Positions 4,892-40,611 of a stretch of DNA of 40,611 nucleotides are shown here, piece by piece; the stretch's first letter is position 1, and each line of letters opens with the position of its first letter. The notes beneath the pieces were generated by a model. That model did no database searches and was not told the DNA's origin. It saw only the letters and a list, made by a program, of their open reading frames with translations. The stretch covers positions 1 to 40,611 of IMG/VR virus record IMGVR_UViG_3300036715_000791. One strand, given 5' to 3'. The position numbers were made by a program, and so were the translations under genes. The stretch comes from a virus.

Positions 4892-5422
4892 ATGACACAT
4901 CGTACTATTTTAGCTTCACTGCTTACCTCTAATCCCTGTTCTGTAGGTGAATTATGCCCTGTGTGTAACACAGACAACTGGGCTCTAGCTCAACCTAGCT
5001 TTCAAAGTAGGTGCGCTGCTGGTAAGAAGGTAATGTACTGCTATACCTGTAATCAAAAAACTGTGCTAAATCAAACAGGATCTATCTTTAACGAAAGCTT
5101 TAACCTAGATAGCTTATCCAGCTTAGACGGCTTAGAGCTGCACGATTTAGCCTACAAGATGTATATTCGCGTACTGCGTTATAAACGTGAGCTAGCTTTG
5201 ACTACCGACAATGCCACTCGCCAGCGTAAGCTTAAGCGTCTGGCTAAAACAGAGTCGGTGATCACCGCAATTAAAAGTCTCCCCCTTTACAAAGCTCTTG
5301 AGCACCGTACCAGTGTTGATTCTGAGGCTGCGTCGTATGCTGCCATCAAAGCTAAGCTTGCTGCTGCTACCGACCCTAGGTTAAAAGCCTTCTACGAGAA
5401 AGTTTTAAAAAACTCAAAATAG
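4892..5422 (+). CDS. Early zinc-ribbon protein, unknown function
   Basis: First rightward gene, 176 residues from the ATG at 4892. I prefer that start to the ATG at 4865 because the -10 at 4858-4863 would place the transcript start after 4865. The N-terminal part has two Cys pairs, CPVC (about residue 21) and CYTC (about residue 50), a likely zinc ribbon. The middle and C-terminus are basic, helical and Ala/Lys-rich, suggesting nucleic-acid binding or a coiled coil. No catalytic motif is visible. Its place at the head of the early region fits a regulator or host-takeover protein, but that is inference. Confidence 0.75.
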   Translation: MTHRTILASLLTSNPCSVGELCPVCNTDNWALAQPSFQSRCAAGKKVMYCYTCNQKTVLNQTGSIFNESFNLDSLSSLDGLELHDLAYKMYIRVLRYKRELALTTDNATRQRKLKRLAKTESVITAIKSLPLYKALEHRTSVDSEAASYAAIKAKLAAATDPRLKAFYEKVLKNSK

Positions 5423-5425
5423 TTG

Positions 5426-5482
5426 TTTACAAGCCTTGAGAGCTACGACATAATGGTCTTCATGGTGTGAGTATCTCACACC
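5426..5482 (+). promoter_or_regulatory. Predicted promoter and leader hairpin
   Basis: TTTACA (5426-5431), 17 bases, CATAAT (5449-5454). The region TTACAAGCCTTGA resembles the promoter at 13079. The leader begins with a perfect hairpin, GGTGTGAG-TAT-CTCACACC (5464-5482), then a CACC-rich stretch and a GGAG ribosome site before the ATG at 5518. A hairpin near the 5' end may stabilise the mRNA. Confidence 0.65.
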
Positions 5483-5517
5483 ACCACCACCCAACCACCC
5501 ACACCCTGGAGATTAAA

Positions 5518-5952
5518 ATGAACGTACTCGCACAAATCACTGCCACTGCTCAAGCAACTACTACTAACGACCGCGGCTCAGTCAAGAAATTTGTCATCGC
5601 TACTTTGAGCTTCGCTAAGCATAACGGCTTGAAACTAAGCAACGCACAGGTCGCAGAGCTTACTCGCTCTAACGTACCTAATGCCAAGACTACCGCTGGT
5701 TCTGTTGCCGACTATGTGCACAAACTGAACACTAACCTGTACGACTACTTGACTTTGGACCAAGCTTCTGAAGCCCTGGCCGCCTTCGACAAAGGCCAAG
5801 ACTTCACACTGGCCCCCACAGTAGTACCTGAGCCTACCTTAGAGATTACTCCAGAGCCTGAAGCCACTGACTCATGCCTTAGCCAGAGCCAAGCTCTGGC
5901 TCGTCTTAATCGTGTACGTAAGAGTCGTGGCGCTCTTCCAAAGAACGTCTAA
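5518..5952 (+). CDS. Early protein, paralogue of the 2822-3223 product
   Basis: A 144-residue protein starting at the ATG that follows CTGGAGATTAAA; an upstream in-frame start lies inside the leader hairpin and is unlikely. The first 91 residues match the leftward early protein of 2822-3223 at about 60% identity without gaps. Conserved parts include DRG-VK-F-IATLS-AKHN, LTRSN-PN-KT and AGSVADY. The C-terminal third differs: it is acidic and Pro-rich, then ends in a basic ARLNRVRKSRG segment. A strong promoter and structured leader suggest high expression. The function is unknown; a small DNA-binding or capping protein is possible but unproven. Confidence 0.8.
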   Translation: MNVLAQITATAQATTTNDRGSVKKFVIATLSFAKHNGLKLSNAQVAELTRSNVPNAKTTAGSVADYVHKLNTNLYDYLTLDQASEALAAFDKGQDFTLAPTVVPEPTLEITPEPEATDSCLSQSQALARLNRVRKSRGALPKNV

Positions 5953-5955
5953 TAA

Positions 5956-6018
5956 GACGTCCACGGTCTCCACCACCGCTTCCGAGGGTGGGGGCCCTGA
6001 TAAGTAGCTATCCGACCA
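5956..6018. repeat. GTCCACCAC element, copy 3
   Basis: GACGTCCACGGTCTCCACCA just after the stop codon matches the left arm of copy 5 at 24041 with few changes. It continues with CCGCTTCCGAG, like the CCGCGTCCGGAG of copy 2, and then GGGCCCTGATAAGTAGCTA, which resembles the loop of copy 2. A full-length inverted arm is absent; only CCACC/GGTGG can pair. It fills the gap before the gene at 6065. Confidence 0.6.
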
Positions 6019-6064
6019 ACTCAACTCGACAGGGGCTCACACGAGCGCCCAAGGCCAACCTAGA

Positions 6065-7106
<1,042 letters not shown>

Positions 7107-7116
<10 letters not shown>

Positions 7117-13955: not shown

Positions 13956-13990
13956 AGGGGGCCAGTTACGACTAGAGCCCCCTTCTTTTT
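13956..13990 (+). terminator. Intrinsic terminator
   Basis: The stem AGGGGGC/GCCCCCT has a 14-base loop and is followed by TCTTTTT. The T-run also forms part of the leader of the DNA polymerase gene, whose GGAGA ribosome site follows at once, so it may only attenuate. Confidence 0.75.
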
Positions 13991-14000
13991 GGAGATTTTT

Positions 14001-15782
14001 ATGCGCACACTAGACTTTGAAACCAACGCTATCGGCGTAGGCAAAGACCTATTCCCTAAGCCTGTTGGTCTGGCTATCCGCTACGAGAACGGCAAATCTG
14101 AATACCTTGCTTGGGGTCATCCATCTGATAACAACTGCACTGAAGAAGAGGCCAAGCGTGTATGGCTTGACTCTGTTACCAACTACGCCGTATGCTTCCA
14201 TAATGCTAAGTTTGACCTGGGTGTAGCAGCGCGTCACTGGGGTATGAAAGTACCTGCTTGGCACCGCTTCCACGACACGATGTTTCTTGTGTACCTGGCG
14301 GACAACCTTGCTGAATCCTACGGCCTTAAGCAATCGGCTGAACGTTACCTTAACATGCCCCCTGAAGAGCAAGACGAGCTCACTGTGCTTGCTCGTGAGA
14401 TGGGTCTTATCGCGTGGAACTCTACTAAGTCCGGCGCTGTCATTTCGCAGCTTCCAGCAGGTCTTGTAGGTGAGTACGCTATTGGTGACGTTGAGCGTAC
14501 CTTCAAGCTGTTCGAACACCTGCACCCTGAATGGCAAGGTGCAGCCTACGACCGTGAGCGCCAGCTCATGCCTATCTTACTAAAGCGCGAGCTCAATGGG
14601 ATTAACTGTGCCACCACGTCGCTCGAAAGCGATGTGAGCAAGTATAACACCTTGCGCGCTCAAGCAAAAGAGCGTGTTTACCTCAAACTTGGCGATAGCT
14701 CAATAAACATTAATTCCGGTCCTGAGCTCTACAAAGGGCTTGTGGCTAACGGCTTATTTGATGAGACTAAAGCCGTACACACCCCCACCGGCAAGGTAAG
14801 CACAGCCAAGGCCAACCTTGCTGATGCTGTGAAAGACAAGGAGATCATCACAGACCTCAACCTTATCAGCACGTTAGACACCTACGTGGATACCTTTATG
14901 ACACCTTGGCTGCTGGAAGCTCAAGCTAATGGGGGTCGTGTATTTCCCAGCTTTAACCAGGTACGTCAAATGGCTGAAGGCGGTGCTAGCAAAGGCACTA
15001 AGACTGGTCGCTTGTCAGCACCTCGGTTCCTTAACACCCCTAAGAACCCCGAGGCTGGCTTACCAAACGTGCGCGGTTACATCATCCCTGAAGAGGGCCA
15101 CGTTTGGTTGAAGCGTGACTACAGCGCGCAAGAATACCGCGTACTAGGCCACTACATTGGCGGCAAGTTTGCACAGGTATTTATTGATGACCCCCTTGCA
15201 GATGTGCACCAACAGATCGCAAACTGGCTGGGCATTACCCGTAAGTACGCTAAGACTATTGGTTTTGGTTTGCTCTACGGCTTAGGCATGCCTGCACTGG
15301 CTGAAGCACTAGGTGTTAACAGTGTAAAGGCTAAGGAGCTTTATCAAGCTTACCTCAACTTGATGCCTGAGCTTGATACTGTTAAGGAGCAATTGAAGGC
15401 TCGCTACAAGTCTAACCTGCCTATCACTACCATCGGGGGTCGTAAGATTAAGGCTGACCCACCGTCTTACAGCAAGAAGTTCAATCGCCACATGGAGTAC
15501 CACTACAAGCTGCTGAACTACCTCATCCAAGGTGGTAGCTCTGACGTAACTAAGCAGGCTATCATTAACCTAGATGATCTTGTTATGCAGCGTTATGACG
15601 AAGCGGACGTACTCTTCAACATCACTGTGCATGACGAGCTTAACCTGTCAGTCGCTGAACCACTGGCAGCTGAGATCATGCCGCTTATCGCTGATGCAAT
15701 GCACGCCGTTGAGATCGATTGCCCTTTCAGTTCAGACGGCTCAATCGGTACGTCATGGGGGACAATGAAAGCTTATGTCTGA
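14001..15782 (+). CDS. DNA polymerase, family A, with 3'-5' exonuclease
   Basis: The replicative polymerase, 593 residues, related to T7 gp5 and Pol I but shorter than T7 gp5. The exonuclease motifs are LDFETN (residue 4), FHNAKFDLG (about 73) and YAIGDVERTF (about 160). The polymerase motifs are KRDYSAQEYRVLGHYIG (motif A, about 373), RKYAKTIGFGLLYG (motif B, about 415) and NITVHDEL (motif C, about 543). GGRLSAP-type contacts appear as KTGRLSAP. The Phe in motif B (IGFGLLYG) where some enzymes have Tyr affects dideoxy discrimination. The start at 14001 follows GGAGATTTTT. It overlaps the HNH gene by 8 bases. Confidence 0.96.
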   Translation: MRTLDFETNAIGVGKDLFPKPVGLAIRYENGKSEYLAWGHPSDNNCTEEEAKRVWLDSVTNYAVCFHNAKFDLGVAARHWGMKVPAWHRFHDTMFLVYLADNLAESYGLKQSAERYLNMPPEEQDELTVLAREMGLIAWNSTKSGAVISQLPAGLVGEYAIGDVERTFKLFEHLHPEWQGAAYDRERQLMPILLKRELNGINCATTSLESDVSKYNTLRAQAKERVYLKLGDSSININSGPELYKGLVANGLFDETKAVHTPTGKVSTAKANLADAVKDKEIITDLNLISTLDTYVDTFMTPWLLEAQANGGRVFPSFNQVRQMAEGGASKGTKTGRLSAPRFLNTPKNPEAGLPNVRGYIIPEEGHVWLKRDYSAQEYRVLGHYIGGKFAQVFIDDPLADVHQQIANWLGITRKYAKTIGFGLLYGLGMPALAEALGVNSVKAKELYQAYLNLMPELDTVKEQLKARYKSNLPITTIGGRKIKADPPSYSKKFNRHMEYHYKLLNYLIQGGSSDVTKQAIINLDDLVMQRYDEADVLFNITVHDELNLSVAEPLAAEIMPLIADAMHAVEIDCPFSSDGSIGTSWGTMKAYV

Positions 15783-16161
15783 CCGCGACGACCCACAAGT
15801 ACAGGCTAAGTGGTCTAAGACGAGGTTAAAAGCCTTACGTCGTGACAACTTCAAATGCCTTGTTTGTGGCTCACGTGTGCGTCCAGAAGGCCACCATTTA
15901 AATGGGTGGGCTAACCACCCACGTCAACGTTTCGACGTCACAAACGTCGTCACGTTGTGCCATGAATGTCATCTTGGAGAAGGTGGCATTCACGATTGGT
16001 TAGGTGGCCCCCAAGTACCGTGCACACGAGCCCACTTTAACGCGTGGCTTAAGAGCAGGCAGTCTTCAGCAGTTCTCATGCATCTTCTGCTCTTCCGCCG
16101 CGTTATCATTACCCTACTGATTACAGGAGTTATAGTCTATGCGTCCTATGTCGCTCTCTAA
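15775..16161 (+). CDS. HNH endonuclease with hydrophobic C-terminal tail
   Basis: A 128-residue protein. The HNH fold is clear: CLVCGSRVRPEGHHLNGW, then NVVTLCHECH, giving two CxxC-type zinc pairs and the HH...N...H catalytic pattern in the first 75 residues. The last 27 residues are a strong hydrophobic segment (VIITLLITGVIVYASYV) that looks like a membrane span and is not normal for HNH enzymes. It may come from a downstream membrane gene fused in frame. The gene overlaps the polymerase by 8 bases and the next nuclease by 23. It may be a mobile nuclease or a recombination enzyme. Confidence 0.85.
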   Translation: MSDRDDPQVQAKWSKTRLKALRRDNFKCLVCGSRVRPEGHHLNGWANHPRQRFDVTNVVTLCHECHLGEGGIHDWLGGPQVPCTRAHFNAWLKSRQSSAVLMHLLLFRRVIITLLITGVIVYASYVAL

Positions 16162-16858
16162 GTTTAACGTTTACAAAGGCTGCCCTAAGCAGTATTTTTA
16201 CAAACACATTGAACCGCCAGTAGGCACTACTATGCCAGAGTCCAAAGCGATGAGCAGGGGGCTGGTAATCCATCAAGAGCTTGAGGACCGTGTGAACCTG
16301 GCCATCGTAGATGGTATGTCAGCCTTCACCACCCCCTTGAAAAGTGCTAGTAAACTGCAGTGGTATTTTGACGAGCTGGTTGCGCAGCACCCTTACCACA
16401 TGGTGCCAGAGCAAGAGCTTGCAATTAACCCTTACACCGATGAGCTTGTGCCTTGGGACAGTAAGGGTTCTGTTGTACGTGCTAAATTGGACTTCATGTA
16501 TATGCTGCAGGATGACCCTGGTGTGTTGTACGTAGTAGACTGGAAGACTGGCCAGATCTACGATAAGCACACAGAGGAACGTGGCTGGTACGCCGTAGTA
16601 GCTTACATTGTGGCTAAGTCTCATGGCGTAGAGTTCGATAAGGTGAAGGCTGCTTATGCCTACGTTGACACAGGGAGCTTAATCCCTTTTGACTTTCAGA
16701 CGTTTAGCATTGGACAGCTAGAAGCTCTGAAGATCAGTTGGTTCACTGATATGATTAGCGTAGGTACAACCGAGCGGTTTACCTACACACCCGGTAACCC
16801 ACAGTGCAAGTGGTGTGATTATGCCAAGTCTAAGACTGGCGTTTGTATGTTTGGTTAA
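16139..16858 (+). CDS. RecB-like PD-(D/E)XK exonuclease
   Basis: A 239-residue nuclease. It starts with SLSKFNVYKGCPKQYFYKHI, the typical N-terminal Cys-containing motif of the PDDEXK_1/RecB-like group. The nuclease core is AKLDFMYM followed by VLYVVDWKTGQ (about residue 137), with the D...DxK signature, then ERGWYAVVAYIV. The C-terminus has CKWCDYAKSKTGVC, which together with the first Cys could hold an iron-sulfur cluster as in AddB/Cas4-like enzymes. It probably processes DNA ends during replication or recombination. AGGAG lies eight bases before the ATG. Confidence 0.88.
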   Translation: MRPMSLSKFNVYKGCPKQYFYKHIEPPVGTTMPESKAMSRGLVIHQELEDRVNLAIVDGMSAFTTPLKSASKLQWYFDELVAQHPYHMVPEQELAINPYTDELVPWDSKGSVVRAKLDFMYMLQDDPGVLYVVDWKTGQIYDKHTEERGWYAVVAYIVAKSHGVEFDKVKAAYAYVDTGSLIPFDFQTFSIGQLEALKISWFTDMISVGTTERFTYTPGNPQCKWCDYAKSKTGVCMFG

Positions 16859-16868
16859 GGAGGTTGTT

Positions 16869-17006
16869 ATGATTTTCTTTCTTGCAGGCGCAGCTTGCGT
16901 AGTCTACGCACTAGTAAGTACTAATGCTATCTTCGGCGGCTTATCTATGCTAGCTGCTCTTATCTGCTTCTTAACGTCTTACTATGCCCTTCAAGGAGGT
17001 GCCTAG
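16869..17006 (+). CDS. Small membrane protein, two spans
   Basis: A 45-residue protein after a very strong AAGGAGG ribosome site, which fixes the start at 16869. Almost the whole chain is hydrophobic with two probable membrane helices, FFLAGAACVVYALVS and FGGLSMLAALICFLTSYYA. It overlaps the next gene by one base. The function is unknown; its small size and position recall phage inner-membrane effectors, but no family is recognised. Confidence 0.7.
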   Translation: MIFFLAGAACVVYALVSTNAIFGGLSMLAALICFLTSYYALQGGA

Positions 17007-17206
17007 TGATCGAATTTAAACAAGGTGATTTAGTTGGTAAATACGGGGGCGATTATGTCTTCGAAGGCGTAGTTGTGGCAGCCTTCACAAAGCTGTCAGG
17101 CGTACAGCGTTACGTTGTAGAGGACGACCGCGGTATCCTCCACGTTTATTCGGCCCCCAACCTGAAGCTTCAAGAGGTTAAGAGCAAAGATTCAGGAACT
17201 ACATAA
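17006..17206 (+). CDS. Small beta-rich phage protein
   Basis: A 66-residue protein starting at GTG after AAGGAGGTGCCTA; the start overlaps the previous stop (TAGTG). The pattern GDLVGKYGGDYVFEGVVVAA, then RYVVEDDRGILHVYSAPNL, is a small SH3-like beta barrel that I have seen often in phage genomes without a known function. There is no membrane segment. A strong terminator follows at 17246. Confidence 0.75.
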   Translation: MIEFKQGDLVGKYGGDYVFEGVVVAAFTKLSGVQRYVVEDDRGILHVYSAPNLKLQEVKSKDSGTT

Positions 17207-17245
17207 CCAAGAAGGTACAAAGCTAAAACGTACGCGAACCAAATG

Positions 17246-17279
17246 AAAGTAGCAAGGCAAACACCTTGCTACTTTTTTC
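17246..17279 (+). terminator. Intrinsic terminator, duplicated at 24.4 kb
   Basis: AAAGTAGCAAGG-CAAACA-CCTTGCTACTTT is a perfect 12-bp stem followed by more T. The surrounding 75 bases, including an upstream AACGTACGCGAA, recur in reverse orientation at 24428-24500. Both copies lie just before a membrane-protein gene. Confidence 0.9.
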
Positions 17280-17298
17280 ATTTAAGAGGTGTTTTACT

Positions 17299-17415
17299 AT
17301 GAAATTGATTAACGACATGATAGAGGTAGGTTACTGGTTGTACAGCAGCTTCCTTCACTTTGCTTTGTGGTGCATAATTATCTCTGTGATTTACATTCTT
17401 GGGAGTGTTTTATGA
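17299..17415 (+). CDS. Very small membrane protein
   Basis: A 38-residue frame starting at the ATG after AAGAGGTGTTTTACT, shorter than most gene finders accept. It encodes a short charged N-terminus (MKLINDMIEVG) and then one membrane span, FALWCIIISVIYILGSVL. Its stop overlaps the start of the VRR-NUC gene in the ATGA manner, and the ribosome site is sound, so I regard it as real. The function is unknown. Confidence 0.6.
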   Translation: MKLINDMIEVGYWLYSSFLHFALWCIIISVIYILGSVL

Positions 17416-17729
17416 CAGAGCTTGAGTCAGCCATAGAGCGCCGCTTCTTAAAGTGGATTAAAGCTCAGGGCTGGAAAGCGTTGAAAATGCAGGGAGTTGG
17501 TAACAAAGGCTACCCTGACCGCTTAATACTAATGCCTAACGGCCTAGTGGCCTTCATTGAGTTTAAGCGACTAAACGAGACGCCTAGACCTCTACAAGAG
17601 GCTAGGATCAAAGAACTTAAAGCCTTAGGGCACAACGTAGGAGTATTTGACAATGACCGACACGCAACCAACTGGCTTACCCTCTTGTTTAGTGTGGGAG
17701 CCACGGCCCTACCAGACACAAGCATCTAA
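17412..17729 (+). CDS. VRR-NUC domain nuclease
   Basis: A 105-residue stand-alone VRR-NUC nuclease of the PD-(D/E)XK superfamily. The signature runs ALKMQGVGNKGYPDRLILMP (about residue 25), then LVAFIEFKRLNETPRPLQEA (about 50), giving the GxPDR...EFK catalytic pattern, and ends with a helix (ARIKELKALGHNVGVF). Phages often pair this domain with a SNF2-like helicase, as here, where the genes overlap by 77 bases. The likely role is junction or flap cleavage in replication or recombination. The start overlaps the 38-residue membrane protein. Confidence 0.92.
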   Translation: MTELESAIERRFLKWIKAQGWKALKMQGVGNKGYPDRLILMPNGLVAFIEFKRLNETPRPLQEARIKELKALGHNVGVFDNDRHATNWLTLLFSVGATALPDTSI

Positions 17730-19047
17730 CTTCCTACTCACGCAGCGTTTTGGGGGCCTGATCTTGTGGCCAGGCTTTGGTAAGACTACTATCATCTTGC
17801 AGAGCATTAAGCGGCTACGTGACGCCGGGTACAAAGGTAAGTTCCTCATCATCGCCCCCTTGAAGGTGGCTAAGTATGTGTGGCCTGAAGAAGCGGCTAA
17901 GTGGTTTAACTTCTCTGACCTCACAGTTCACGTGCTGCACGGCAAGGGCAAGCGTACCGACGTTGAGGCCGATATTTACGTCACTAACTTCGACACCCTG
18001 CCTTGGCTGCTAGACGCTGCCTACGATCGCCCTACAGAGCTGGGCATTACAGCACTTGTAATCGATGAGCTCTCTAAGTTCAAGCGCCACAGCAGCCAAC
18101 GTTTCAAGCTGCTCAAGCCACACCTTGCACGGTTCCATTACCGCTGGGGTCTCACAGGCTCGCTGATGACTAGGCACTACGTAGACCTGTTCGGCTTAAT
18201 GTACGTGATTGACTGCGGCAAGGCCTTAGGTGGTTTTGTTACTCACTATCGCCGTAAGTACTTCAGCCATGACCCTTATTCACATGCCTACGAAGCGCTG
18301 CCTGGTGCTGAAGATAACATCAAGAAGCGTATTTCACCTAGCCTCTTTGTGCTGCCTGAAGCCGAGTACTTCAAGCTCCCTGAGTTCGTAGAGTCTGACC
18401 TCCGCTTTAAGCTCACGCCCCCCTTAATGAATCAATACAAAATGCTGCACGACGAGCTAGTGATTGAGTTGCAAGACGCTACTATTACTGCTATCGGTGC
18501 ATCAGCCGCTATGAACAAGTGCTTGCAGTTTGTGAGCGGTAATGTGTACGACGAGACTCGTGCCGTTCATGCCCTACATACAGAGAAGCTTGAGCAGCTT
18601 GATGAGTTAATCGAAGAGCTAAATGGTGCGCAGCTTGTTATCTTCTACTGGTACGAGTTTGAGTACCAAATGCTGCTGGCTCACTTTGGGGGTCGTATTG
18701 GCTTCATCAACTCGCAGACACCTGAGAAGTCTGAACAAGCAGCAATCAAGGCTTGGAACAAAGGCGAGCTTGAGCTGCTAGCTATCCAACCTGCTTCAGG
18801 TGGCCACGGTCTGAACCTGCAAGGGAGTAACGCACGCTACGTTGTGTGGTACTCCCTGACTAACGACTACGACCTTTACGACCAGGGGAACCGTCGCGTA
18901 TATCGCTCTGGTAACCAGGCAGAAAAAGTCGTCGTCTTCCGTCTTATTGCTACAGGCACTGTAGATGAAGCACTAGTAAAGATGATGGCACGCAAGAGCT
19001 TTAAACAAGCTGAACTGGTAGCTGACCTTAGCTTACTATCGGCTTAA
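17653..19047 (+). CDS. SNF2-like / DEAD-box helicase
   Basis: A 464-residue superfamily 2 helicase. Motif I is WPGFGKTT (about residue 36), motif II is VIDELSK (about 135), motif III is WGLTGS (about 165). The C-terminal domain has QPASGGHGLNLQGSN and the motif VI QGNRRVYRSGNQ. The SNF2-like pattern in phages is usually tied to replication or recombination together with a VRR-NUC nuclease. The start is at 17653 after AGGAGTATTTGACA. The 77-base overlap with the nuclease gene means the two are strongly coupled. Confidence 0.92.
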   Translation: MTDTQPTGLPSCLVWEPRPYQTQASNFLLTQRFGGLILWPGFGKTTIILQSIKRLRDAGYKGKFLIIAPLKVAKYVWPEEAAKWFNFSDLTVHVLHGKGKRTDVEADIYVTNFDTLPWLLDAAYDRPTELGITALVIDELSKFKRHSSQRFKLLKPHLARFHYRWGLTGSLMTRHYVDLFGLMYVIDCGKALGGFVTHYRRKYFSHDPYSHAYEALPGAEDNIKKRISPSLFVLPEAEYFKLPEFVESDLRFKLTPPLMNQYKMLHDELVIELQDATITAIGASAAMNKCLQFVSGNVYDETRAVHALHTEKLEQLDELIEELNGAQLVIFYWYEFEYQMLLAHFGGRIGFINSQTPEKSEQAAIKAWNKGELELLAIQPASGGHGLNLQGSNARYVVWYSLTNDYDLYDQGNRRVYRSGNQAEKVVVFRLIATGTVDEALVKMMARKSFKQAELVADLSLLSA

Positions 19048-19049
19048 AA

Positions 19050-19092
19050 CATAAAGAGGTTTGTATACATGGCAAACCTCTTTATGTATAAT
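19050..19092 (+). promoter_or_regulatory. Hairpin-embedded promoter
   Basis: CATAAAGAGGTTT (19050-19062) and AAACCTCTTTATG (19074-19086) form a perfect 13-bp stem. The -35 TATACA (19064-19069) is in the 11-base loop, and the 3' arm forms most of the 17-base spacer and abuts the -10 TATAAT (19087-19092). There is no T-run, so it is not a plain terminator. It lies three bases after the helicase stop codon. Confidence 0.7.
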
Positions 19093-19096
19093 GATC

Positions 19097-19140
19097 ACAT
19101 CAACAAGCAATCCTGCTTGTTGAAAACCAAGGAGACTACC
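19097..19140 (+). promoter_or_regulatory. Leader hairpin upstream of the DUF5664 gene
   Basis: TCAACAAGCA-ATCC-TGCTTGTTGA is a perfect 10-bp stem near the 5' end of the transcript, followed by a GGAG ribosome site. It is almost identical to the leader at 13115-13158. It probably protects the mRNA 5' end or shapes translation. Confidence 0.7.
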
Positions 19141-19908
19141 ATGACTGGTAAAAAATTTGACGCCGGCAAACCACGTTACGATCTTATCCCACCTGTTGTA
19201 CTTGAGCAGTTGGCCACAGTGCTTACCTTTGGTGCGGAGAAATATGGTCCTAACAACTGGCAGGCTGTGCCTGACGCTCATAACCGCTACTACGCTGCCT
19301 TGATGCGTCATGTAGAGGCCGATCGTGGGGGCGAAGTCTACGACGAGGAGTCTAATCTCCCCCATCTCACACACGCCTTGGCCTGCGTAACGTTCATGCT
19401 TCATGGCTGTATGGTACAGCCAGAGGTTGAGCAACGTCCAGGTTGTAAGGTACCACCTAAGTTGGAGCTGTTCCTTGGATGGCTCGGCTCTGAAGTCGCA
19501 ACCATGTATTTGGATAACGTGGACGCTGAACACTTGAAAGACTTGGCGGCAACCTGCCTACCAGAGATGTATGTAGCAAGTGCCTTTGTATGGCGCAAAA
19601 CTGAGGAAGGTAATGCCTTTTGGTCTGCAGTCAATAACAAATGGGTGGCACACTTGGAACTTAAATTTAAGCGTGGTGAGTCCGAAGTGGCACCTTGGCT
19701 CGTACAACTTGTTGAGTGGCTTGGTCCTATAAATGCGACAGCGTTTCTTAACAACTTAACTCGTGTAGAAGAGATTAAGCATTACAAACAAGCTAACTTA
19801 CTTACCAGTGCATTTAGTTGGGGTGACACTGACGAAGGTGCAGACTTCTGGGCAGCGTTAGACTCTGATTGGCGTAAGCACCTGAACAGTGTAAAAGGCG
19901 GTATCTAA
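19141..19908 (+). CDS. DUF5664 (dATP/dGTP diphosphohydrolase-like) protein with duplicated C-terminal module
   Basis: A 255-residue protein. The N-terminal 90 residues match the phage family named dATP/dGTP diphosphohydrolase N-terminal domain (DUF5664): KKFDAGKPRYDLIPPVVLEQ, LTFGAEKYGPNNW, RYYAALMRHVEA and NLPHLTHALACVTFM. The His and acidic residues would bind metal for dNTP hydrolysis; the activity of this group is mostly inferred. The rest has two related modules of about 65 residues, each ending in SAF(V/S)W-x-x-T-(E/D)-EG-x-x-FW...HL. This looks like an internal duplication. It is expressed from the hairpin promoter and abuts the next gene by one base. Confidence 0.75.
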   Translation: MTGKKFDAGKPRYDLIPPVVLEQLATVLTFGAEKYGPNNWQAVPDAHNRYYAALMRHVEADRGGEVYDEESNLPHLTHALACVTFMLHGCMVQPEVEQRPGCKVPPKLELFLGWLGSEVATMYLDNVDAEHLKDLAATCLPEMYVASAFVWRKTEEGNAFWSAVNNKWVAHLELKFKRGESEVAPWLVQLVEWLGPINATAFLNNLTRVEEIKHYKQANLLTSAFSWGDTDEGADFWAALDSDWRKHLNSVKGGI

Positions 19909-20732
19909 TGCAAGAATGGCACTCACTGTTAAGTAAGTGCATGAAAGAAGGAACTCCTCGGCGCTCGCCGGGGGTTTCTACTCATGCTTTATTCGACGTT
20001 CAATTCCGTGTGTGGATGGGAGCAGCAACGTTCCCAGCATTCACATCCAAGCAACTTTTCTTTGGTCAAGTGAAAGCAGAGCTAGCAGCATTCCTGCACG
20101 GCGAAACTACGCTTGAAGGATTCCACAAATGGGGGTGCAGGATTTGGGATGCTAACGCAGTTAATCATCGCTCTGGTGAGATTGGCCGCGTCTACGGTGC
20201 ACAATGGCGCTCTTGGCCTCGGGAAGGTTTAGACACCCCCTTGGACCAGCTACAAGCACTAGTAAGTGGCATTGACGCAGAGCCTTTCTCTCGGCGCCAC
20301 ATCCTTCAAAGCTACAACCCAGGGGCTACGTCAGCCTGCTTGCCTGCTTGCCACATGAGTGCGCAGTTCTACGTAGCAAATAACAAGCTTAATTGCACTG
20401 TTACTATGCGCTCGTGTGACCTGTTCCTTGGGCTGCCTTTTGACGTAGCATCGTATGCATTACTGACGCACCTAATCTGTAAAGAGCTTAGCTTCTTACA
20501 GCCTGGTAATCTGACGTTCAATATTTGTGATGCTCACATTTATGGTAACCACCAGAAAGCAGTACGTGAGGTGCTAGAACGTGACGTCCACAAGGCTCCA
20601 CACTTGATTCTGAGCCCTGATGCCTCACTCTTTGACTTCTATCCTAAACACGTTGAATTGGACCACTATGTGCACAGCGGTCCACTATCAGCCCCCATGA
20701 ACGTGCACGAGGAACCTAACCATGGCAGCTAG
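19908..20732 (+). CDS. Thymidylate-synthase-fold enzyme, probable dCMP hydroxymethylase
   Basis: A 274-residue thymidylate synthase homologue. Family motifs: YGAQWRSW, SRRHILQSYN, catalytic Cys in LPACHMSAQFYV (about residue 146), MRSCDLFLGLPFDVASYALL and DAHIYGNH. In thymidylate synthase the motif reads PFNIASY; the Asn contacts the uracil ring. Here it is Asp (PFDVASY). Asp at that place is found in T4 dCMP hydroxymethylase, and the Asn-to-Asp change is known to switch preference to dCMP. The product is therefore likely 5-hydroxymethyl-dCMP or 5-methyl-dCMP, made before incorporation in DNA. MazG and dCMP deaminase lie downstream. Ordinary dTMP synthesis is the alternative. Confidence 0.8.
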   Translation: MQEWHSLLSKCMKEGTPRRSPGVSTHALFDVQFRVWMGAATFPAFTSKQLFFGQVKAELAAFLHGETTLEGFHKWGCRIWDANAVNHRSGEIGRVYGAQWRSWPREGLDTPLDQLQALVSGIDAEPFSRRHILQSYNPGATSACLPACHMSAQFYVANNKLNCTVTMRSCDLFLGLPFDVASYALLTHLICKELSFLQPGNLTFNICDAHIYGNHQKAVREVLERDVHKAPHLILSPDASLFDFYPKHVELDHYVHSGPLSAPMNVHEEPNHGS

Positions 20733-20886
20733 GAAACGGCTTTATGACGCCTACAGCGCAGGTCGCCAATGTTACGAGCAGGGGGGCAAGTTTCACGACA
20801 ACCCCTACGATGACTCTAAACCGCGGTTGAAGTATGCCTGGCTTTCCGGCTACAGCGACGCAACACTAAACAGTATGAACGAGTAA
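20722..20886 (+). CDS. RMF/CrpP-like small protein
   Basis: A 54-residue protein, too short for most gene finders. It follows GAGGAACCTAACC and overlaps the previous gene by 11 bases. The layout AYSAGRQCYEQGG, then NPYDD and finally YAWLSGYSDA resembles ribosome modulation factor (G-x-AG...CPY...W-x-x-GW-x-x-A), a gammaproteobacterial protein that dimerises 70S ribosomes; the plasmid protein CrpP belongs to the same fold. A phage copy might act on host ribosomes or stabilise something else of similar shape. Homology is by eye and needs a profile search. Confidence 0.65.
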   Translation: MAARKRLYDAYSAGRQCYEQGGKFHDNPYDDSKPRLKYAWLSGYSDATLNSMNE

Positions 20887-20919
20887 ACTACCCAGCAAGA
20901 TTACTAGTTAAATTACACT

Positions 20920-20959
20920 AAGAGGCCTGTTTACAACAGGCTTCTTTTTTGAGTATAAT
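20920..20959 (+). promoter_or_regulatory. Composite terminator and hairpin-embedded promoter
   Basis: AAGAGGCCTGT (20920-20930) and ACAGGCTTCTT (20936-20946) pair with one mismatch and are followed by a T-run to 20950: an intrinsic terminator for the dCMP hydroxymethylase transcript. The loop holds the -35 TTTACA (20930-20935); 18 bases later comes the -10 TATAAT (20954-20959). So the same DNA ends one transcript and starts the next. Confidence 0.75.
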
Positions 20960-21008
20960 AAACCCATCAAGACAAAACAACCTTTTCAAACAACCTGAGG
21001 ACAAGACA

Positions 21009-21551
21009 ATGTTACACATTACTGAATTGAAACCTACTATGTCTGCAAGCGAACTGCTTACCGCGGTCAAAGACATTTACGCAGAAGAGATTGCACAAAC
21101 AACCCGCAACCTTGAACGTGGCGTCTACAAGAACACTGACTACTGCCAAGAAGTACTTGCTGGTACAAAGTGTGCTCTTAATGGCTTAGAGCACGCAGAC
21201 ACCATGATGGCTGATGCATTGGTATTCGCTGACACCTACATGTTAGGTGATGGTATGAGCGATAAGTTCCTCTTCGCACGGTTGGCCAAGCTCTCTGAAG
21301 AGGTAGGTGAAATGGCCACAGCGGCAGCCGCAGGTGATGAGTACGAAATTGCGGACGCACTTGTAGACATTGTGTACGTTGCACTGGTCACAGCCGCTAA
21401 ACGTGGCCACCCACTCAGTAAGTTATGGGACGACGTTCACAAGTCTAACATGACTAAGACACCTAAGGGTGAAGGTAAGTTTGGTGCGAGCAAGGGTGAA
21501 GGCTTTATCCCTGCAGACACTAAGGCAATCATGCAAGACGCAGGCTTCTAA
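21009..21551 (+). CDS. MazG-like nucleotide pyrophosphohydrolase
   Basis: A 180-residue all-alpha NTP pyrophosphatase. The MazG signature is LAKLSEEVGEMATAAAAG (about residue 95) with the EExxE metal site, then EIADALVDIVYVALVTA with the two Asp ligands, and KLWDDVHKSNMTK. Such enzymes hydrolyse dNTPs to dNMP and PPi. With a dCMP hydroxymethylase nearby, a dCTPase role as in T4 gp56 is attractive: it would supply dCMP and remove dCTP. The substrate is not shown by the sequence. The start at 21009 follows a CTGAGGA ribosome site; its leader is nearly the same as that of the gene at 23730. Confidence 0.88.
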   Translation: MLHITELKPTMSASELLTAVKDIYAEEIAQTTRNLERGVYKNTDYCQEVLAGTKCALNGLEHADTMMADALVFADTYMLGDGMSDKFLFARLAKLSEEVGEMATAAAAGDEYEIADALVDIVYVALVTAAKRGHPLSKLWDDVHKSNMTKTPKGEGKFGASKGEGFIPADTKAIMQDAGF

Positions 21552-21557
21552 TCAACA

Positions 21558-21585
21558 TGGGGGCTGGTAAGGATACTGGCCCCCT
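21558..21585 (+). terminator. Weak hairpin after the MazG gene
   Basis: GGGGGC and GCCCCC pair around a 14-base loop, followed by TAAAA rather than a T-run. It may be an attenuator or only an mRNA 3' stabiliser. It resembles the G5/C5 stem at 13956-13990. Confidence 0.4.
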
Positions 21586-21612
21586 AAAACCTAGAGAACA
21601 GAGGACATTGAG

Positions 21613-21822
21613 ATGAAGAAAGACATTAAAGCACTTATAGCGCTATTAGTTAGTTTAGGCTACACTGTACTAGAGGGTAAGAACCACTACAAAGCAGTCG
21701 CTACGCAGGGTCAAGTAACATTCGCTAAGACACCCAGTGACGTAAGAGCGCTGCTTAATATCCGCCGTGATATTAAGCACAACCTAGGATTTGATATTCG
21801 TAACTATGGGAGCAACATCTAA
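21613..21822 (+). CDS. HicA-like small protein
   Basis: A 69-residue protein that resembles HicA-type mRNA interferases (dsRBD-like fold). It has the layout KALIALLVSLGYTVLEGKNHYKAV with the key His in GKNHYK, then a beta strand (QVTFAKTPSD) and a helix (VRALLNIRRDIKHNL). No HicB-like antitoxin gene follows; the next gene is dCMP deaminase, which it overlaps by one base. Isolated HicA-like proteins are known in phages and may be inactive or target host RNA. The call is by eye. Confidence 0.65.
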   Translation: MKKDIKALIALLVSLGYTVLEGKNHYKAVATQGQVTFAKTPSDVRALLNIRRDIKHNLGFDIRNYGSNI

Positions 21823-22250
21823 TGACAGGCACAACCAAACAAGTCTACTTCATGCAACTGGCCACCCGAGCGTCAGAGCAGAGCCATTGCTTACGCCGTA
21901 AGGTGGGGGCTGTGATTGTAGACCGTAACCTAAACATCAAAGCACTAACATACAACGGTCCTGCTCGTGGTCGTCCACACTGTGACGAAGGTCATCCGTG
22001 CCATGGTGTGAATCTGGCCCCCGGTCAAGACCGCTGTGAAGGTCTACACGCTGAACAGTCTGCAGTGCTTGCAGCAGGTAACACGCCTGACCTGTTCGCA
22101 ATCTATGTAACAGAGGCACCATGCTTTGCTTGTGCTAAGTTCCTGCTGCATACCAGCATTCAGACCATCTACGTGCCAGCACACGCTGACATGCAAGAGC
22201 ACAGTAAAGAGCTATGGCTAAGCGCAGGCCGTAACTGGCTTAACACCTGA
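21822..22250 (+). CDS. dCMP deaminase
   Basis: A 142-residue zinc deaminase. The active site is HAEQSAVLA (His and catalytic Glu, about residue 79) followed by TEAPCFACAKFL (the two zinc Cys, about 105). The insertion with HCDEGHPCH and a further Cys, between strands, is typical of the dCMP deaminase group, where extra zinc binding and allosteric control occur. It makes dUMP, the precursor of dTMP. Together with MazG and the thymidylate-synthase-like enzyme it balances the pyrimidine pool. The start overlaps the HicA-like gene. Confidence 0.93.
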   Translation: MTGTTKQVYFMQLATRASEQSHCLRRKVGAVIVDRNLNIKALTYNGPARGRPHCDEGHPCHGVNLAPGQDRCEGLHAEQSAVLAAGNTPDLFAIYVTEAPCFACAKFLLHTSIQTIYVPAHADMQEHSKELWLSAGRNWLNT

Positions 22251-27440: not shown

Positions 27441-28535
27441 TTATAAGGTTACTGTTGCATTGGGAAACTTAGCCAAAATAGCAGGTGCTACCAGCGCTGA
27501 TGTGCTGAATGGATTGTTACGTAAATCAAAAGTGATAGTATTTGCACTACTACCAAGGCTTGATACCCATGCTAACGCCTCTGGCTCTTGAATTGCTGTG
27601 TAACGTAAGGTGAAGGTTGTTGCAGCTGCGAAAGCTGACCCTAAACCAATTGTGATTAACTTTCGCAGCGATCTACAGCAAGTCGATTCGTCTGTGGTGC
27701 CGAACATACCTGTACATGTAACAAGTGCAGACAACCCGCCAAAATAGCATGATTGTAATGAAATGTTGTAGACGTGCATATTAATGGCATTAGACAGCGC
27801 TGGGTAATTTCCATGAGTAACTGATTGTAATGCACTATTAGAATAATGCATATTAGTGGCATCAGTCAGCGCTGGGTAATTGCCATGCGTCACAGATTGT
27901 AAGGCAGTGTTGTAGATGTGCATATTAATGGCATTAGACAGCGCTGGGTAATTTCCATGAGTAACTGATTGTAATGAAATGTTGTAATAATGCATATTAA
28001 TGGCATTAACCAGCGCTGGGTAATTTCCATGAGTAACTGATTGTAATGCAGTGTTGTAGACGTGCATATTTGTGGCGTTAGTCAGCGCTGGTAGTCTATA
28101 AAACAAGCCAGCAATGTATGCGGAGCTATTTGTATTGGTTTCCGCTGGGTTATCAGTGTTAAATAGCAAAGATGTAAGAGATTGTCCTGCTTGTGGAGTA
28201 ATCTCTGTATATGCTTGACGTGTGTTAACGTCGACATTGTGCGTACAAGCAGACCAATCTATCTGCCAATTGCACTGGATATTCGCTGCTATATTTTGTC
28301 TGCTGATCAACGTTCCGCCAACTGACGTGTACACACTAACAGTATAAGCACCAGAGGCTCTGCAGCTAAAATAATTACGATCACCTATGTCCAGCACGTT
28401 GCAAAACATGCCGCAAGCATCTGTTAGGCCATTCATAGTGGTGTCGGTCAGGATAGGGGGCGTTAACCAGCCATTTGATGGAGGAGACACGCCGCCACTA
28501 TTACTGTACAAACCAATAGTACCAAAAGGATGCAT
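27441..28535 (-). CDS. Leucine-rich-repeat tail protein, probable receptor-binding protein
   Basis: A 364-residue protein. The middle (about residues 145-270) consists of five to six repeats of exactly 24 residues, each with L-x-N-A-x-N-M-H-x-Y-N-x-x-L-QSVTHGNYPA. The spacing of hydrophobic residues and Asn is that of a leucine-rich repeat, a common ligand-binding fold. The C-terminus has a degenerate repeat (TITFDLRNNPFS). The start at 28535 follows GGGGGTG. The gene lies among fibre genes, so a role at the tail tip or as adhesin is likely but inferred. Confidence 0.75.
   Translation of the reverse strand: MHPFGTIGLYSNSGGVSPPSNGWLTPPILTDTTMNGLTDACGMFCNVLDIGDRNYFSCRASGAYTVSVYTSVGGTLISRQNIAANIQCNWQIDWSACTHNVDVNTRQAYTEITPQAGQSLTSLLFNTDNPAETNTNSSAYIAGLFYRLPALTNATNMHVYNTALQSVTHGNYPALVNAINMHYYNISLQSVTHGNYPALSNAINMHIYNTALQSVTHGNYPALTDATNMHYSNSALQSVTHGNYPALSNAINMHVYNISLQSCYFGGLSALVTCTGMFGTTDESTCCRSLRKLITIGLGSAFAAATTFTLRYTAIQEPEALAWVSSLGSSANTITFDLRNNPFSTSALVAPAILAKFPNATVTL
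27735..28106 (-). repeat. 72-bp tandem repeats in the LRR gene
   Basis: The landmark CAGCGCTGGGTAAT (or its last variant) recurs at 27795, 27867, 27939, 28011 and 28083, exactly 72 bases apart, on the plus strand. The copies are very similar even at silent positions, so they are young or kept alike by recombination. Repeat-number change would lengthen the protein in frame. Confidence 0.92.
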
Positions 28536-38607: not shown

Positions 38608-40528
38608 TTTGATCACCGCTGCGTGTTTGTAAATCGGTTTCTGCTTTAAGCTGTGCAACCTCAAGCCGCGTATGGTTATCCATCAAAGCAATCTTTTCAG
38701 AGGAAGCCAGCTTCATTTGTACTTCTTGTAGCGTGGCAAGCTGAGCTTTTAGCTGCTCGTTCTCTTGCATTAGCTGCTGTGGATTAATATTATCACCGTT
38801 AACGCCCGGAGGTAACATCTTTTTAAGCCGCGAGGCCAATTCACGAGCACCAGGCCAGTCCATAGCTGCAGCGATAATATCACCACCCACTTCAGACAGT
38901 TGTGGGAAGCTTTGGTTCCACTGCATCATAGCGTCTACAGTCTCACGACGACGAGTAGCAAATGCTGGACCAGAGTCAATGATAATGTCGTAGCGGCCAA
39001 CAGTAAGGTCGAATAGCTTTTCGACCTCGTTCTCCTGGTACTTCTGGTTAACCTGCACTTCTGTAGATTCACCTACGTCATTGATGATGCGCAGCACGCG
39101 AGCTGTGTCATAGACAAAAGGTGTAGCACTTAAGAGGATACGACCTAAGTGACGGTAAGCAACACTTAGGTTGTCGTTATAATGAGCGTTGTTAAGCTGT
39201 GATTGTCCTACCCGCGCATTGATAGCGCGACCTGTCTGCTCTGCAGAGGGGGCCCCTAATGCAGCGGTGTAAATACCTGTCGCCGCTTTCATGTCCTCAA
39301 CTGCTCCCATACGCGCTTGTGTAATAGCTTGGATGTTAGCTTCATTGTTCAGACGGTACGGTGGAGGCAAGAGCGTGCCGTTCAGCGTCTGTGGCGTGTA
39401 GGTAATGTAGCCGAAGTTACGCTTAGTAACAGAGTCCCACTTCTTCTTATCGCCGTCAAACTGACCCTCTGCACCAAGGATGGGGGCCTTTGGTGCCGCC
39501 ATGATTGTCTCGGTCTCTGCGCTAAGCCAGAAGTTATACATGCGCTGGGAGTCTTTTGCATTACGGATGAGACCTTCATAGATAATCTCGCCGTTCAGGT
39601 CAAGCTCACTGCCGTACACAGGCACTACTGGAATATACTCACCAGGAAACTCGGTCTTCTCAAGCACTTCGTAGCCGTTCAAGCTGTACCACTCAATGAC
39701 AGGTACTTTTGACTGGCGAGTCTTAACTACCTCTACCCCCAGCTTGTCGGCAATCTCTTTGAACACTGTCTTACCGTCAGCTAACAAGCACAGTGTCTTA
39801 GTCTTCATTACCTTGCGGAAATACTCTACAACCTTAACCTGGTCGCCTGTGAACCAGCTAGTCATGTAAGATGCAGGCATGCCTGAACTCCACATTGACG
39901 AGCCGCAGAGTTCAGCGTCAGGGTATTCAGCCTCAAATTCAGCTTTAGGCATTAACTCCTCGATAAAGCACCACTTAGCATCTGAACCGTCAAGCTCTTG
40001 AGCATTAGGGTCTAGTGTTACAGTGAAGATGTTACGTACCCGCTTAACACGTAGCACCATGTTAAAGCTCTGCGAAGACTCATATTCAGTGACTACGCGC
40101 ATGTAGCCTACGCCAGTATTGACAGCGGACTCAATAGCAGTTACATACGCAGTATCGGCATTGGAGTTGTACTCGATAGCACGGAACAAGCCTTGTACTA
40201 CTTCAGCTGTATCTTGGCTAGCACCATCACCTGCAGGGCTTACCCGCAAGGCCATTTTGTTCTGGCGAAACTCATTTGTCACCTGACGAGTGAACTGCGG
40301 CAGGCGATTATTGGTAAGACAAGGGCGCATCTCTGCTTCGCGTTGCTGCTTCAGTTGTGCTGGCCACTGGTCACCAGCACGGAACTGCAGATCCTCTAGT
40401 GCATTACGACGAATGTGATTGTAGAAGACAGTCCCTTCATCATAGCGAGTACGAGCTTCTTGCAGCAGCGCCTCCTCTTCACGGTCTTCTTTCTCATCAG
40501 CTTTAGTGCCTTCTTTAGGCTCAATCAT
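38597..40528 (-). CDS. Portal protein, P22 gp1-like
   Basis: A 643-residue portal. I start it at the ATG at 40528, six bases after CGGGAG, rather than at the TTG at 40546. The N-terminal region (FYNHIRRNALEDLQFRAGDQ, RPCLTNNRLPQFTRQVTNEF) and the stretch GVGYMRVVTEY, then FWLSAETETIMAAPKAPIL, are typical of P22-like portals. The C-terminal 60 residues are a coiled coil (LMQENEQLKAQLATLQEVQ), like the P22 barrel. The gene follows terL across the contig ends. Confidence 0.93.
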   Translation of the reverse strand: MIEPKEGTKADEKEDREEEALLQEARTRYDEGTVFYNHIRRNALEDLQFRAGDQWPAQLKQQREAEMRPCLTNNRLPQFTRQVTNEFRQNKMALRVSPAGDGASQDTAEVVQGLFRAIEYNSNADTAYVTAIESAVNTGVGYMRVVTEYESSQSFNMVLRVKRVRNIFTVTLDPNAQELDGSDAKWCFIEELMPKAEFEAEYPDAELCGSSMWSSGMPASYMTSWFTGDQVKVVEYFRKVMKTKTLCLLADGKTVFKEIADKLGVEVVKTRQSKVPVIEWYSLNGYEVLEKTEFPGEYIPVVPVYGSELDLNGEIIYEGLIRNAKDSQRMYNFWLSAETETIMAAPKAPILGAEGQFDGDKKKWDSVTKRNFGYITYTPQTLNGTLLPPPYRLNNEANIQAITQARMGAVEDMKAATGIYTAALGAPSAEQTGRAINARVGQSQLNNAHYNDNLSVAYRHLGRILLSATPFVYDTARVLRIINDVGESTEVQVNQKYQENEVEKLFDLTVGRYDIIIDSGPAFATRRRETVDAMMQWNQSFPQLSEVGGDIIAAAMDWPGARELASRLKKMLPPGVNGDNINPQQLMQENEQLKAQLATLQEVQMKLASSEKIALMDNHTRLEVAQLKAETDLQTRSGDQNGN

Positions 40529-40611
40529 GGTTAGCTCCCGAGCCAAGAGTGGCTCATGTTGGCGTTATCAAATAAAAGATCTTCGTATAGGTTACGAGTA
40601 CCAAATAGATT
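40485..40611. repeat. Terminal direct repeat, right copy
   Basis: This is the exact second copy of bases 1-127. It contains the 5' end of the portal gene and the 3' end of the large terminase gene, which proves that terL and the portal gene are adjacent and overlap at the junction. Confidence 0.9.

Follow-up and report, generated by a model that had tools for sequence, protein, structure and literature searches.

A thymidylate-synthase-like protein of an IMG/VR phage as a predicted dCMP C5-methylase in an Xp12-type gene cassette

The virus record IMGVR_UViG_3300036715_000791, whose 40,611 bases were analysed whole and are called the window here, encodes a protein that databases would label thymidylate synthase (TS). 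From its sequence and gene context, we think it probable that this protein is a C5-methylase of deoxycytidine monophosphate (dCMP) acting in a modified-cytosine pathway like that of phage Xp12, and that the phage DNA would contain 5-methylcytosine (5mC). An earlier note on this DNA had proposed a modified-cytosine pathway, with hydroxymethylation as its first choice. The pathway is supported, and the cassette matches the Xp12 type; the preference for hydroxymethylation is not supported, because the signature residues of the T4 enzyme are absent and a TS tail is present.

An aspartate at the substrate-determining position

The open reading frame (ORF) of the TS-like protein matched the Pfam family Thymidylat_synt over its full length (8e-69) and the PHROG thymidylate synthase family (5.5e-80). 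We aligned the protein with E. coli ThyA, T2 TS, T4 gp42 and phage relatives, and positions below follow E. coli numbering unless the residue is given as that of the query. In the query motif RSCDLFLGLPFDVASY (PFDVASY), D179 aligns with Asn177 of E. coli ThyA, which confirms the Asn-to-Asp change described in the earlier note. Position 177 is Asp in the query, in T4 gp42 and in all Xp12-type enzymes (D177), and Asn in E. coli, T2 and two other phage TS (N177); the query thus lacks the Asn of canonical thymidylate synthase. Replacement of Asn by Asp at 177 redirects TS to dCMP, D177 tracks with modified DNA in viromes, and in the MetaGPA survey positions 177 (Asn versus Asp) and 147 were those most associated with modified viral DNA (PMC8670742).

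The residues expected of a working enzyme are intact: Cys148, Glu58, Tyr96, Arg129/Arg130, Arg168, Ser169, Asp171, His210 and Tyr212 of the query correspond to the catalytic Cys, Glu58, Tyr94, Arg126/127, Arg166, Ser167, Asp169, His207 and Tyr209 of E. coli. Its other marks are M167 (position 165), L145 (143), H149 (147) and N83, which replaces W83. The C-terminus carries an LSAPMNV tail with 8 extra residues, a complete TS-type tail. An AlphaFold model (predicted local distance difference test, pLDDT, of 89) had canonical TS as its best PDB matches, and the L. casei N229D-dCMP complex, 1njc, was among the top structures. Overall, sequence and fold are nearest canonical TS, and the subfamily most likely sits nearer to it than do the characterised cytosine-modifying members compared. 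Similar to the query, the engineered N229D L. casei and N177D E. coli enzymes combine TS architecture with a single Asn-to-Asp change, and these laboratory enzymes methylate dCMP; the query, in contrast, is natural, and has M165, N83 and genes for MazG and a deaminase.

Distribution and gene context of D177 enzymes

Plain homology found no D177 among the approximately 80 nearest viral TS. A codon pattern for G-x-P-F-D-[VIM]-A-S-Y, however, matched 41 stretches in IMG/VR, 39 of them within an ORF matching the TS model (of the two exceptions, locus L124 has no TS match and L110 has its TS elsewhere), and the Asn version of the pattern matched at least 120. When one genome per species was scanned across 84,980 cellular species, a D177 pattern picked out just 5 TS loci. 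Each of these lies in a metagenome-assembled genome, and 3 are on contigs shorter than about 15 kb. The trait is therefore largely viral.

The query is one of a set of viral D177 homologues of TS, most of which also have Asn83 and Met165. Between 26 D177 and 101 N177 sequences of canonical type, only position 177 itself and position 163 differed more strongly than 165, where Met occurs in 19/26 of the former and 3/101 of the latter, 95 of which have Gln. Outside this set, position 165 is Met in T4 gp42 and in the enzyme of Stenotrophomonas phage AXL3, and Leu in Xp12-type enzymes. That Met165 accompanies D177 argues for a functional switch over a stray change; an independent-pairs test of 177 against 165 pointed in the same direction, with pairs too few for significance.

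With column 177 left out of the tree, 18 D177 sequences including the query formed a group (SH-aLRT 94, not starred) that excluded the Xp12-type enzymes and T4 gp42, and D177 required 6 changes, at least 2 of them forced by well-supported branches. The best tree separates the query group (15 rows) from the Xp12 type, but their union was not rejected (approximately unbiased test, AU p = 0.51). We therefore dropped an origin independent of the Xp12 enzyme as a claim and treat it only as a possibility. P147 and N143 of the Xp12 clade are not in the query, and a single clade is neither supported nor rejected. Eight further loci (L101, L104, L114, L121, L120, L315, L320 and L334) have D177 in canonical backgrounds (W83 or D83), mostly with neither MazG nor deaminase in the flanks examined, and are possibly separate switches or tolerated changes. 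In L113 (533-1894, minus strand) the D177 TS frame holds a mid-gene, HNH-like insertion of ~170 residues, possibly a homing insert.

The genes beside these enzymes also differ. We compared 159 non-redundant viral TS loci (<70% identity), 30 with D177 and 129 with N177, scoring neighbours within 6 kb with profile models whose MazG and deaminase seeds came from the window, from Xp12-group phages and from others. A deaminase was nearby at 18/30 D177 and 5/129 N177 loci (p 8e-12) and MazG at 10/30 and 1/129 (p 1e-7). These values should be read with care: the window was itself among the seeds, the flanks are not uniform, part of the D177 loci came from the motif search, and modules that are related count only partly as independent. 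MazG, which the earlier note had named as a possible dCTPase, is supported as a likely one. The order TS-MazG-deaminase is repeated in L115, L130 and L134, which are close to the query, and, among genomes, in L338. L134 and L115 have the polymerase, PD-(D/E)XK and SNF2 genes in the window's order, and in these two and L113 the replication module is orthologous in order, with a D177 TS. Locus L337, one of the five in metagenome-assembled genomes, runs SNF2 helicase, PF18909/DUF5664, TS (47% identity) and MazG, as in the window. Beside D177 TS, PF18909 stands as a gene of its own in L111 and L337 and is fused to MazG in L103; in its place L134 has a small gene weakly matching "nucleotide modification associated domain 1" (E 0.005, below cut-off).

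The closest characterised counterpart is phage Xp12, whose cytosine is 100% 5-methylcytosine (PMC7653180). In its group (Bosavirus-Pamexvirus, represented here by AXL1, A1432 and PaMx28), as in the window, a D177 TS homologue lies by a MazG-type pyrophosphohydrolase and a deaminase and adjoins PolA and SNF2 helicase genes; in AXL1, a close Xp12 relative, the order is MazG, TS (D177), deaminase, DHFR. AXL1 DNA was cut by 5 of 31 restriction enzymes (PMC9206674), and that of AXL3 by 2 of 37, both with A/T-only sites (PMC7504290); the DNA of these two cultured carriers is thus resistant to most enzymes whose sites include G/C. The Xp12-type enzyme differs from the query in N143, P147, A93, L165 and a shorter tail; Xp12-group MazG, unlike the window's, has a C-terminal extension; and AXL1 and PaMx28 have an adjacent DHFR, where the window has the separate PF18909 gene. 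The earlier note had recognised no glucosyltransferase or dNMP kinase, and none was found among the window ORFs scanned. Its description of an unusually small set does not hold, since the Xp12-group phages have the same three genes and, in the stretches read, no recognised modified-dCMP kinase or glucosyltransferase.

Reaction product and alternative explanations

D179, M167 and the gene context strongly indicate dCMP as the substrate; that D177 is the cytosine determinant, as the earlier note had it, is supported by the alignment, the published Asn-to-Asp switch, co-variation and context. In TS, the C-terminal tail is needed for methylation. Hydroxymethylases are recognised by an acid at position -3 from the catalytic Cys, a Ser/Thr two before the active-site Tyr and the lack of a TS tail (PMC6400193). 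The acid is present in T4 gp42, AXL3 and the Manatee Spring phage (MW202621) enzyme; the query has Leu145 there, lacks the Ser/Thr (GRVYG) and, contrary to the T4 gp42 type, keeps the tail. T4 gp42 shares with the query the TS fold, the Asp at the specificity position and Met165, but has Asp145 (position 143), Ser94, Thr147 and no tail where the query has Leu, Arg/Val, His and a tail. Without a water-activating acid and with the tail in place, a methyl product seems favoured over a hydroxymethyl one. The alignment with hydroxymethylases and XP12-type enzymes, which the earlier note had named as a check, thus bore out the shared Asp177 and found in the query neither the T4 acid and Ser/Thr nor the Xp12 P147 and N143.

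In the pathway we propose, MazG would convert dCTP to dCMP, both supplying dCMP and removing dCTP, and the D179 enzyme would turn dCMP and methylene-tetrahydrofolate into 5-methyl-dCMP and dihydrofolate. Host kinases would raise 5-methyl-dCMP to 5-methyl-dCTP, which the phage polymerase would put in cytosine's place; by analogy with Xp12, the resulting 5mC DNA would resist restriction. The deaminase, probably part of the pathway, would drain unmethylated dCMP to dUMP and may also convert part of the 5-methyl-dC nucleotide to thymidylate, as is reported for Xp12. dCMP deaminases accept 5-methyl-dCMP (PMC12088426), and the same article, citing 1982 work, reports that the XP-12 deaminase forms dTTP from 5-methyl-dCTP. 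The link between D177 and the deaminase could arise because the deaminase drains dCMP, because it makes thymidylate from 5-methyl-dC nucleotides, or both.

The window is very probably a complete phage genome, as it has an exact 127-base direct terminal repeat (1-127 = 40485-40611) and genes for terminase large subunit, portal and major head protein; gene absences therefore carry weight. The scanned ORFs of the window yielded no dNMP kinase, glycosyltransferase, DHFR, PurZ or second TS.

It is unlikely that the enzyme is instead a dCMP hydroxymethylase yielding 5-hydroxymethyl-dCMP and phage DNA with 5-hydroxymethylcytosine. In its favour are D177, shared with T4 gp42, the Asn in place of W83 and the lack of a DHFR in the window, as hydroxymethylation consumes no tetrahydrofolate. 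MazG and the deaminase also accompany the AXL3 enzyme, which has the T4-like acid. AXL3 and MW202621 resemble the window in related polymerases (36-37%; few polymerases of named phages are closer than that of AXL3), helicase, nucleases, NTP-PPase, D177 enzyme and deaminase, but their D177 enzymes have the hydroxymethylase-type Asp143 and Thr147, and AXL3 has in addition a kinase-annotated gene and ThyX. Besides Leu143, His147 and the tail in the query, two facts count against this explanation: the D145N change abolishes T4 activity (PMC6400193), and N83 occurs also in T2 td, a true TS. Still less probable is a dUMP-free thymidylate route alone, in which deamination of 5-methyl-dCMP supplies dTMP to a phage with unmodified DNA. 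The close association between D177 and the deaminase, the known use of 5-methyl-dCMP and 5-methyl-dCTP by such enzymes and the absence of another TS in the window are as expected for it, and L103 has a hydroxymethylase separate from its D177 TS. However, the same kind of cassette in Xp12 accompanies fully methylated cytosine, D177 correlates with modified DNA in viromes, and, with ThyX present in AXL3, its D177 enzyme would not have to supply dTMP. We give an equally low rating to the idea that D177 is tolerated by a thymidylate synthase, ordinary or relaxed, for which dUMP is still the substrate in vivo: sequence, fold, H147, L143 and the Pfam and PHROG labels are those of TS, but D177 comes with Q165M and different neighbours, and engineered Asn-to-Asp enzymes prefer dCMP.

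Several observations weigh against a dCMP methylase. In its phosphate loop (~residues 15-24) the query has SPG in place of RTG and so lacks the conserved Arg21, which the other alignment rows keep. The window's ORFs provide no phage DHFR for dihydrofolate recycling, although DHFR is missing nearby at most N177 loci too. With their P147 and incomplete tail, the Xp12-type enzymes, for which 5mC is proven, are less like the query than canonical TS is, and the D177/L143/H147 group is known from sequence, chemistry having been measured in other types. The AXL3 resistance to cutting may reflect hydroxymethyl-type chemistry, given the acid at 143. L103 (same contig as L292) encodes, at 1736-2557 and 5303-6034, a D177 TS of canonical type together with a hydroxymethylase like T4 gp42; a deaminase and the MazG-PF18909 fusion are there as well, and the roles of D177 enzymes may therefore differ. 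The restriction-palindrome ratio of the window (0.91 observed/expected) is inside the comparison-phage range and uninformative, and palindrome avoidance was dropped as a mark of modified DNA.

A more far-reaching form of the dCMP methylase proposal seems to us doubtful. It would make the query a member of a second, sequence-distinct natural dCMP methylase family, built on a near-unchanged TS (L143, H147 and tail, with N177D and Q165M) and arisen separately from the Xp12 and T4 enzymes, in which MazG and a 5-methyl-dC-nucleotide deaminase would let one methylation step feed both 5-methylcytosine and thymine.

Cassette neighbours and significance

The neighbouring MazG, dCMP deaminase and dNTP hydrolase (PF18909) genes named in the earlier note were recovered by Pfam and PHROG matches.

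Features of the predicted modified-cytosine cassette and the module that houses it
Feature	Position	Strand	Basis
Replication module housing the cassette: family A polymerase, HNH, PD-(D/E)XK, VRR-type nuclease, SNF2 helicase	13989..19047	+	Pfam/PHROG
N-terminal dATP/dGTP diphosphohydrolase domain (PF18909, 5e-31); possible second dNTP hydrolase of the cassette	19069..19908	+	Pfam
TS-fold enzyme, 274 aa; predicted dCMP C5-methylase	19908..20732	+	Pfam, PHROG, alignment, model
Codons of substrate-determining motif P177-F-D-V-A-S-Y183 (D179 = 20442-20444)	20436..20456	+	Sequence and alignment
MazG/PRA-PH all-alpha NTP pyrophosphohydrolase (3e-13); predicted dCTPase	20949..21551	+	Pfam/PHROG, co-occurrence
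Small 69-aa protein between MazG and deaminase, phrog_2053	21613..21822	+	PHROG
Zinc deaminase, dCMP deaminase family (Pfam 4e-16; PHROG dCMP deaminase 7e-27)	21822..22250	+	Pfam/PHROG, co-occurrence

The stop codon of the PF18909 gene overlaps the start of the TS-like gene. A Z-genome (2-aminoadenine) reading of the PF18909 gene was rejected, no PurZ/adenylosuccinate-synthetase match being found among the window ORFs scanned. The nearest phage matches of the window MazG include Xp12-type, Achromobacter, AXL3 and Microbacterium phages. The deaminase has HAE and PCxxC zinc motifs and one Trp that lines up with a Trp in the Xp12-group enzyme, presumably W128 of XP-12.

Elsewhere, the first 12 kb of the window had no close DNA relatives among phage records. 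Near the tail genes, a frame at 27441-28535 (minus strand), with no PHROG match, has repeated blocks (NATNMH-YN-ALQSVTHGNYPAL...) resembling leucine-rich surface repeats, and the frame of an HNH-like protein at 6712-7116 (plus strand) opens with a run of ~20 threonines, a simple repeat.

The cassette appears to be an Xp12-type set of genes with an enzyme nearer canonical TS. Because databases label such proteins thymidylate synthase, modified-cytosine phages are overlooked, and D177 with M165, MazG and a deaminase offers a rule for re-annotation. If our proposal is correct, the enzyme would be the natural equivalent of what was engineered in the classic N229D/N177D experiment, and more phages may carry 5mC, a probable shield against bacterial defences, in their DNA; these phages would test how general Xp12's unusual thymidylate route is.

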